Shown in pieces: positions 54,471-56,786 of a stretch of 64,000 nt of DNA. How positions within the stretch are numbered: position 1 is the stretch's first letter; each line of letters begins with the position of its first letter. This DNA is from Fictibacillus arsenicus (GTDB lineage Bacteria > Bacillota > Bacilli > Bacillales > Fictibacillaceae). The notes beneath the pieces were generated by a model, which saw nothing but the letters and a program-made list of their open reading frames with translations, had not been told where the DNA came from and ran no database searches. Both the position numbers and the translations under genes were made by a program. The DNA lies in NCBI RefSeq assembly GCF_001642935.1, contig NZ_CP016761.1:1922001-1986000 (forward strand). Reading direction: 5' to 3'.

Positions 54471-54818
54471 GGTCACAGGCTCCAGCTGCGTTGCTGGGGA
54501 ATGGTGGAGTTAGAAAAACAACTATCTCAAACAAAATATAACCTTGGTAGGGAATATGCGAAAAATGGCAAAAAGGAAGAAGCCTTAAAAGAATTGAATA
54601 AGGCTCTTCTTCTTGATACAGATAATTTTCTAATTCGTAAGCAACGCTGTTATATCCGTTATCCTGAGAAGTTTTCCCAAATGATTGATATCGAATGGCA
54701 ACAGAAGCAATTAGAAAAAGAAAAGGCTAAGGAAGCTCAATTAAAAGGTGATTTAGTTTGTGGTCCTGAAGGGTGTGTTATTCCTGGAACAAGAACATTG
54801 AACGATAAAAGTGAATAG
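54471..54818 (+). pseudogene. C-terminal fragment of a redoxin-like protein
   Basis: Open for 115 codons after a TAG: CWGMVELEKQLSQTKYNLGR, a TPR-like helix pair (AKNGKKEEALKELNKALLLD), then LVCGPEGCVIPGTRTLNDKSE. The CGPEGC tail and the helical insert suggest the end of a peroxiredoxin/redoxin-type protein whose N-terminal catalytic domain has been lost. An ATG at 54501 exists but lacks a good ribosome site. It is convergent with the thioredoxin-like gene. Identification is tentative. Confidence 0.5.
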
Positions 54819-54829
54819 ATGAATAACAG

Positions 54830-54858
54830 AAAGCAGACGAAAAAATCCGTCTGCTTTT
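54830..54858. terminator. Convergent terminator between redoxin fragment and thioredoxin-like gene
   Basis: AAAGCAGACG / CGTCTGCTTT with loop of A and T; usable from both sides. Confidence 0.8.
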
Positions 54859-54864
54859 ACAGCT

Positions 54865-55173
54865 CTATTGTAATGCAAACTCCCTTACAGCTTCCTCAGG
54901 AATCGCTCCTGTTACTCGGTCTACTTCGTTGCCATCTTTAAATAAAATCATCGTAGGAATGCTCATTACTCCAAATTGTTTCGGAAGATTAGGTGATTCA
55001 TCAACATCCACGCTATAAAAATCAATTTGATTTAATTCCTCTGAAACACTGCTTACAACTGGACCCAGTTGTTTACAACCTGGTCACCAATCTGCTGTGA
55101 ATTTTAAGACAAAAGGTTTTTCTGAATTTTTAACTGTTGTTTCAAAATCTTTTTCATTTAAGTTCTTTAATAT
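54865..55173 (-). pseudogene. Thioredoxin-like gene with in-frame TGA at the first redox Cys (selenoprotein candidate or pseudogene)
   Basis: About 102 codons read as a complete thioredoxin-like protein: LNEKDFETTVKNSEKPFVLK, FTADW-TGA-PGCKQLGP, DVDESPNLPKQFGVMSIPTM (cis-Pro), ending EEAVREFALQ. The sole interruption is TGA at 55084-55086, codon 30, where relatives have the first Cys of WCxxC. An AAGGAGG site is present, but the codon at start distance is ATA (55171-55173) and no NTG start is available. A hairpin ACAACTG-GGTC-CAGTTGT begins 11 bases after the TGA. Selenocysteine insertion or simple decay are both possible. Confidence 0.75.
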
Positions 55174-55344
55174 ATATAAAACCTCCTTGCTTCAAACTAT
55201 TTTTTTATTATATCCTAAAGCTAAAAAGTTAATCATGAATTAGTCTTAGTCGTATTTTATTAAAAAATATTTCAAAGGAACCTAGAAGTAGAACCGACAT
55301 TGATGATGAAATGAAAGATTATCTTATCATTGTAGGTTTGGCCA

Positions 55345-55485
55345 AAACCAGTGGTTGAAATGTCGGCCGGTATTTATCAAGCAGTTTCTGAAGGGGAGAC
55401 CTCCAGAACTTCTGGAGATTTGCAAAAACTGATTGGTACACCAACTTCATTAGAAGAGGTGGTAAAACAAGCTCTACAAGCTTGA
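55345..55485 (+). pseudogene. C-terminal fragment of an NmrA/QorB-like NAD(P)-binding protein
   Basis: Frame VEMSAGIYQAVSEGETSRTS then GDLQKLIGTPTSLEEVVKQA is the usual C-terminus of YtfG/QorB-type SDR proteins. No Rossmann N-terminus is present upstream. Confidence 0.6.
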
Positions 55486-55493
55486 TTTTTACA

Positions 55494-55542
55494 AAAAACA
55501 GATCACAGTTGGATTCAGGTCCATTCAATGTGATCTGTTTTT
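55494..55542 (+). terminator. Terminator after the NmrA-like fragment
   Basis: AAAAACAGATCACA / TGTGATCTGTTTTT, a 14-bp stem, left over from the truncated gene. Confidence 0.82.
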
Positions 55543-55624
55543 ACTTATATTTTGCTTTAATATGGTTATGTATAATAAGATATGATAATTGTAATAATGA
55601 CTGGTCTAGAAAGAGAGATCCCAT

Positions 55625-55663
55625 ATGAGATTAAGTATTTTAGATCAATCCCCTGTTTCTTAT
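55625..55663 (+). pseudogene. N-terminal stub of an LLM flavin oxidoreductase
   Basis: ATG-MRLSILDQSPVS is a typical LLM/luciferase-like start, preceded by GAGAGAGATC. After 12-13 residues homology stops although the frame stays open. The full LLM gene 130 bases later begins with the similar MKLSVLDQSVIS. This may be a deletion scar of a neighbouring paralogue. Confidence 0.5.
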
Positions 55664-55793
55664 GACAAAACCGCTCATAATTATAGGGTGAGCCTTTTCG
55701 CAAATGAACACTCAATCTCCAGGAATGCGGAAATAGTCCCTATAGCCGGCAAAATTTTATTTAAGAGAATTGTCATGAAAGAAGGTCATTTTA

Positions 55794-56786
55794 ATGAAAC
55801 TGAGTGTACTCGATCAATCTGTCATAAGTAATGCACAAAATGCAGATATTGCCCTACAAAATACAGTACGATTGGCAAAAATTACAGAGGAATTGGGATA
55901 CACTCGATTTTGGGTAGCTGAGCATCATAATTCAAATGGAATAGCGGGTACATCACCAGAGGTGCTGATCTCAAGTATTGCATCACATACAAATAAGATA
56001 CGTGTAGGTTCAGGTGGGGTTTTGCTTCCACAATATAGTCCTTTTAAAGTAGCAGAAAATTTCAAGGTTCTAGACGCATTGTATCCAAATAGAATTGACT
56101 TGGGAATCGGGCGTTCACCCGGAGGTTCTTCATCGACTCGGTTAGCCCTCACTGACGGATTGCGAAAAAGTATGAATGAATTCCCAAGACAAGTCACTGA
56201 CCTACAAGGCTTTATTTATGATCAATTACCCGATTCACACCCTTATTATGATGTGATTGCTTATCCTTCTGTTGAAACAAAACCGCAATTATGGCTTTTA
56301 GGTGTCACACATCGAGGGGCAAGATTAGCAGCTGAGAAGGGAACAGCCTTTACCTATGGTCATTTTATCAATCCAATTAATGGGAAAAGAACGATGGAAA
56401 CCTATAGGAATAACTTCCAACCTTCTAAATCTTTAGCTAAACCAAAAACAATCGTGTGTATATTTGTGGTATGTGCTCCAACACAAGAACAAGCAGTAGA
56501 AATGGCACTGAGCCAGGACCTGTGGCTGTTAGCAGTTGAGAAGGGGAGGAATACCCATATTCCCTCTAAGCGTGAGTCAAAGAGTATATCATTATCAAAA
56601 GAAGACCAGGCAAAAGTAATCGAAAATCGGAATCGAATGGTAATCGGAACTCCTGAGAAGGTAAGAGAGGAACTCCTTCGATTAAGTGAATTTTATCAAA
56701 CAGACGAATTCATGATCCTGACTAATGTCTATGATTTTCAAGACAAGATTCAATCTTACTCCTTACTGGCGGAAGCATTTCTTTAA
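55794..56786 (+). CDS. LLM-class flavin-dependent oxidoreductase (luciferase-like)
   Basis: A 330-residue bacterial-luciferase-family monooxygenase of the MsnO8 type: TRFWVAEHHNSNGIAGTSPEV, GGVLLPQYSPFKVAENF, LDLGIGRSPGG-like IDLGIGRSPGGSSST. It should use reduced FMN; the organic substrate is unknown. Start ATG after GAAGG. No flavin reductase lies beside it. Confidence 0.88.
   Translation: MKLSVLDQSVISNAQNADIALQNTVRLAKITEELGYTRFWVAEHHNSNGIAGTSPEVLISSIASHTNKIRVGSGGVLLPQYSPFKVAENFKVLDALYPNRIDLGIGRSPGGSSSTRLALTDGLRKSMNEFPRQVTDLQGFIYDQLPDSHPYYDVIAYPSVETKPQLWLLGVTHRGARLAAEKGTAFTYGHFINPINGKRTMETYRNNFQPSKSLAKPKTIVCIFVVCAPTQEQAVEMALSQDLWLLAVEKGRNTHIPSKRESKSISLSKEDQAKVIENRNRMVIGTPEKVREELLRLSEFYQTDEFMILTNVYDFQDKIQSYSLLAEAFL

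Follow-up and report, generated by a model that had tools for sequence, protein, structure and literature searches.

A putative selenocysteine thioredoxin gene with an in-frame UGA and a SECIS-like hairpin in Fictibacillus

SelB-dependent decoding of UGA is an established mechanism. Its products include selenocysteine (Sec) thioredoxins (Trx, PF00085, UxxC motif), a listed selenoprotein family with WP_010956703 as an example (PMC9312934, PMC13188914). The published model of the bacterial SECIS element has a stem of 4-16 bp, a loop of 3-9 nt with an early G, a distance of 16-37 nt and a free energy of at most −7.5 kcal/mol (PMC13188914). For Bacillales, no more than three selenoproteins were listed in an early survey (PMC1794560), and no paper on selenocysteine in Fictibacillus was found. 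The gene described here is located in a 64,000-nt stretch (the window, C1:1922001-1986000) of a complete, single-contig Fictibacillus genome of 4.06 Mb. Since Sec thioredoxins are a listed family, it is assigned to a known kind, the UxxC thioredoxin selenoproteins. It shares with WP_010956703 the thioredoxin domain, a predicted Sec as the leading residue of the redox motif and a bacterial SECIS after the UGA; the differences, for a likeness drawn by family listing, are the aerobic Bacillales host, the motif W-U-P-G-C and the ATA start.

The thioredoxin gene and its UGA codon

The minus strand at positions 55173-54865 contains a thioredoxin frame of 102 residues, extending from a putative ATA start (55173-55171) to a TAG stop (54867-54865) and including a single internal stop, TGA (55086-55084). 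The translation is ILKNLNEKDFETTVKNSEKPFVLKFTADW*PGCKQLGPVV...REFALQ*, with asterisks for the stops. The first-pass annotation of the window had reported a frame of about 102 codons interrupted solely by TGA at the first Cys of W-C-x-x-C, and the translation and the domain search agree with it: PF00085 covers the whole frame with TGA read as a residue (94.9 bits, cut-off 23.5, E = 3.4e-27). The redox motif is W-TGA-PGC, so that UGA occupies the first redox Cys position and Cys the second; the codon of this resolving Cys (TGT, 55077-55075, minus strand) is invariant in aligned homologues. A terminator-like inverted repeat, AAAGCAGACG...CGTCTGCTTT (54830-54857), is situated between this gene and the convergent one.

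The housekeeping TrxA (WCGPC) encoded elsewhere in the genome (C1:2726339-2726629) has the same fold and length. However, the two proteins are only 38% identical, TrxA has Cys and GP between the redox residues where the Sec thioredoxin would have Sec and PG, and the score of the latter with the TrxA equivalog model TIGR01068 (93.0 bits) is below the cut-off of 96.8. In the protein tree, the Sec thioredoxin family is separated from housekeeping TrxA with full support.

It is very probable that 55173-54865 is a UxxC thioredoxin selenoprotein gene whose UGA is read as Sec in a SelB-dependent manner, with a thiol-selenol redox role for the product. In the proposed mechanism, a hairpin starting 11 nt past the UGA would recruit SelB carrying Sec-tRNA(Sec), and the UGA would be decoded as selenocysteine. 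Insertion of Sec, which is predicted for the protein of this strain, would produce a selenol-thiol pair (W-U-P-G-C) replacing the dithiol. The fold and motif point to a thiol-selenol redox partner, and the protein would probably serve as a specialised thioredoxin, in addition to ordinary TrxA, in the reduction of disulfides or of oxidised partner proteins.

Conservation of the TGA and the selenocysteine machinery

Homologues (E ≤ 1e-25) were present in 14 of the 399 genomes sampled from the order. Twelve of these genomes have exactly one TGA per copy, and the remaining two, G041 and G305, have Cys. Two further copies with TGA were found outside the order, in the same class. In total, TGA was found at the Sec codon in 17 gene copies of 15 genomes, belonging to Fictibacillus, to other families and, in two cases, to other orders, and Cys in a minority of homologues (L021, L073, L074, L076, L078 and L139). 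The Cys forms are grouped in a single sub-branch of the protein tree, the placement of which is not firmly resolved. The Sec thioredoxin lineage is spread through Bacillales, and within Fictibacillus the gene was detected in 3 of 18 genomes. The intact orthologues of F. nanhaiensis and F. arsenicus are 96% and 94% identical to the window's protein, and that of Bacillus pinisoli 67%; all three keep the TGA. On the question of Cys or TGA in relatives, raised in the first-pass annotation, the close ones thus have TGA, not TGC or TGT, and they start with ATG or TTG. A second, diverged copy in one genome (G174, L158/L141) features DL-U-TTC (DL-TGA-TTC) instead of DW-U-PGC. One further match of 61% (L028, genome G052) is a decayed copy that has TTA in place of the Sec codon along with other lesions. 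Its genome retains selA, and the copy was excluded from the TGA counts.

These comparisons bear on the view that the gene is an ordinary thioredoxin in decay, with TGA and ATA both being random lesions in a pseudogene. The ATA at the start position and the adjoining gene, a fragment next to an apparent transposase remnant, would fit such a view, and the first-pass annotation had likewise noted decayed genes nearby, correctly in the case of the fragment at 54501-54818. However, the identical TGA is kept across genera at 48-78% protein identity with no other stop, relatives have good starts, and the hairpin constraint described below is confined to TGA genes. Moreover, the window copy differs from that of F. 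nanhaiensis by just two synonymous and two non-synonymous codon changes, plus the start codon. A pseudogene with a chance TGA is ruled out by the conservation of the TGA, and decay of an ordinary thioredoxin is considered very improbable as a whole. Ordinary annotation would drop the gene or label it a pseudogene; single TGA interruptions in Bacillales should not be taken as decay.

The same complete genome encodes SelA (538 bits), SelB (361 bits), SelD and a tRNA-Sec with the anticodon UCA (58 bits), all about 40-47 kb away from the thioredoxin gene; the machinery that the first-pass annotation had proposed to look for is therefore present. The SelD frame itself carries a TGA (KGG-U-GCK, GG-TGA-GCK), which means that one more gene, if not several, is a likely client of the Sec system. 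This TGA is located just upstream of the open reading frame 15519-14554 (L048, minus strand), where standard ORF calling starts too late, at a TTG. Formate dehydrogenase was considered as the main Sec user and rejected: both full-length matches lack an internal stop and so give no evidence of being selenoproteins. Another genome of the comparison (G082:C12) contains two tRNA-Sec genes 5.5 kb apart (159738-159830 and 165261-165353).

Among the genomes of the order, selA was found in all 12 with the TGA form versus 182 of 399 overall (P = 6.6e-5, a value to be used as a guide, since related species are not independent draws). A tRNA-Sec gene was detected in 14 of 14 further TGA genomes and is missing from the Cys-form genome G305, so that selA or tRNA-Sec was present wherever a TGA genome was tested. 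The first-pass annotation had raised the prospect of a Sec thioredoxin in an aerobic spore former. The occurrence itself is supported, but it is less exceptional than implied, given the 182 genomes of the order with selA and the listed UxxC family.

Completion of the gene without selenium, by reading UGA as Trp or Cys or by readthrough or frameshifting, is extremely improbable. No points in favour of it were found, and it is opposed by the complete Sec system with a second UGA gene, by the confinement of TGA genes to selA/tRNA-Sec genomes where tested and by the position of the TGA, which stands exactly for Cys; decoding as Trp was rejected for the last reason. As far as sequence allows this to be established, the TGA almost certainly encodes Sec.

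The SECIS-like hairpin and constraint on the RNA

The hairpin ACAACTG-GGTC-CAGTTGT is found at 55072-55055 (minus strand), as the first-pass annotation had described it: a perfect 7-bp stem (ACAACUG/CAGUUGU in the RNA) with a 4-nt loop, GGUC, starting with GG 18 nt after the UGA. The stem begins 11 nt past the UGA and is intact in 10 of 10 clade 1 homologues. Of the 2684 TGA trinucleotides on the two strands of the window, only 0.67% precede a perfect stem of at least 7 bp that obeys the same spacing and loop-G rule. The hairpin fits the bSECIS model at −10.4 kcal/mol over the 41-nt stretch from the UGA, outer pairs included. Compared with the bSECISearch consensus, as restated in PMC13188914, the 4-nt loop, the 7-bp stem, the early loop G and the 18-nt spacing are the same, whereas the core stem by itself (−7.0 kcal/mol) and the 23-nt distance of the hairpin in a second clade are different. 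No Rfam match was obtained within 54500-55800; this result does not speak against a SECIS.

A competing hairpin, also mentioned in the first-pass annotation, does form when the isolated strand is folded, and it wins in the free fold of 66 nt, the energy of which is unremarkable (z = −0.5). It is, however, broken in 7 of 10 homologues, all ten of which have an intact SECIS-like stem, and it was rejected as a functional element.

In the ten TGA genes of clade 1, the hairpin has the consensus ACAACUG-GNUC-CAGUUGU; its loop lies 18 nt from the UGA with G, C or A as second base, and the synonymous sites of the hairpin are frozen within the clade. Synonymous identity at codons +4 to +10 was 252/261 (97%) versus 438/879 (50%) at other codons. 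In clade 2 (L134-L138, L140), the values were 68/78 for hairpin codons and 135/271 for other codons, and in the Cys homologues 35/73 and 139/261. After the removal of near-duplicates, with random codon sets as the reference, the hairpin codons remained constrained in clade 1 (0.96 vs. 0.45, P = 1.9e-4) and at codons +6 to +11 in clade 2 (0.89 vs. 0.49, P = 5.6e-3), and no constraint was seen in the Cys homologues (0.48 vs. 0.53, P = 0.69). This pattern argues decisively for RNA-level constraint on the hairpin that is specific to TGA genes. Together with the machinery and the TGA kept in relatives, it supports the Sec thioredoxin reading of the first-pass annotation.

The stem of clade 2 is a different one, UUGAGGCC-GGU-GGUCUCAA, whose loop is at a distance of 23 nt from the UGA. 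It too is frozen at synonymous sites within its clade; two of its pairs vary, solely between A-U and G-U. No two-sided compensations were found in the hairpin stems of the TGA-gene alignments because the stems are almost frozen. The two unrelated hairpins in two clades of one orthologous thioredoxin gene might represent a natural SECIS replacement in a constant coding context, a suggestion for and against which we give equal weight. The paired Sec and Cys orthologues and the two different hairpins are material for testing SelB requirements.

Translation start and genomic neighbourhood

The Shine-Dalgarno sequence AAGGAGG (55188-55182, minus strand) is 8 nt before the ATA, confirming the start distance given in the first-pass annotation, and no in-frame ATG, GTG or TTG occurs between AAGGAGG and the TGA. 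The same AAGGAGG precedes ATG in F. nanhaiensis and TTG in F. arsenicus, and ATA is peculiar to the window's strain. Because of this ATA start, it is only with some reserve that we are inclined to think that the copy is translated at a useful level. Alternatively, the ATA may have arisen recently by a mutation that weakens initiation, or may be an error in the sequence; the gene may be poorly translated in this strain, newly inactivated or misread.

In another reading, the Sec thioredoxin family is a true one, but the window copy no longer initiates efficiently after a recent change from ATG to ATA and is being lost. This reading is possible, though we hold it the less probable one. It draws on the ATA at a place where the two nearest species have ATG and TTG, on the patchy occurrence in the genus and on the decayed neighbour, which was itself a selenoprotein gene. 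On the other hand, the frame, the Shine-Dalgarno sequence, the UGA, the hairpin and the terminator are all intact, the differences from F. nanhaiensis are too few to show relaxed selection, and the ATA is possibly a sequence error.

The decayed neighbour (54501-54818, plus strand) is a C-terminal fragment (TPR, VCGPEGC) of a ResA-like selenoprotein. Its product matches the C-terminal end of a full-length form in another genome (L150) at 76% identity over 95 aa; there, the ResA-like gene with WASW-TGA-RC is directly upstream of the Sec thioredoxin gene on the same strand. In the window, the Sec-bearing N-terminal half is missing and is replaced by an apparent IS3-type transposase remnant. The site thus likely once held two selenoprotein genes, one of which lost its Sec half. 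The full form (L150:7757-8527, L154:14111-14860) comprises an N-terminal WASW-U-RC domain, TPR and a C-terminal CGPEGC, and scores 129 bits with NF041054 (WAxxUGC_long), under the cut-off of 300.

A PhnDCE-like transporter is encoded near the Sec thioredoxin gene in five loci (L149, L150, L151, L154 and L157), in three of which (L151, L154 and L157) a glycosyltransferase gene and a UGA-bearing selD, the latter within about 5 kb, are also near. In the genome under study this set is beside selB/selA: the glycosyltransferase and PhnDCE-like ABC transporter genes lie between selB and selD (L048:11095-14527, C1:2019094-2022526). The glycosyltransferase scores 231 bits with the GPMC-system GT and 76 bits with the selenosugar synthase SenB, both under cut-off, and the transporter 189 bits with the "putative selenate ABC transporter" substrate-binding protein (SBP; cut-off 250). 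The set recurs beside the Sec thioredoxin gene in other genera and possibly consists of selenium uptake and selenosugar genes.
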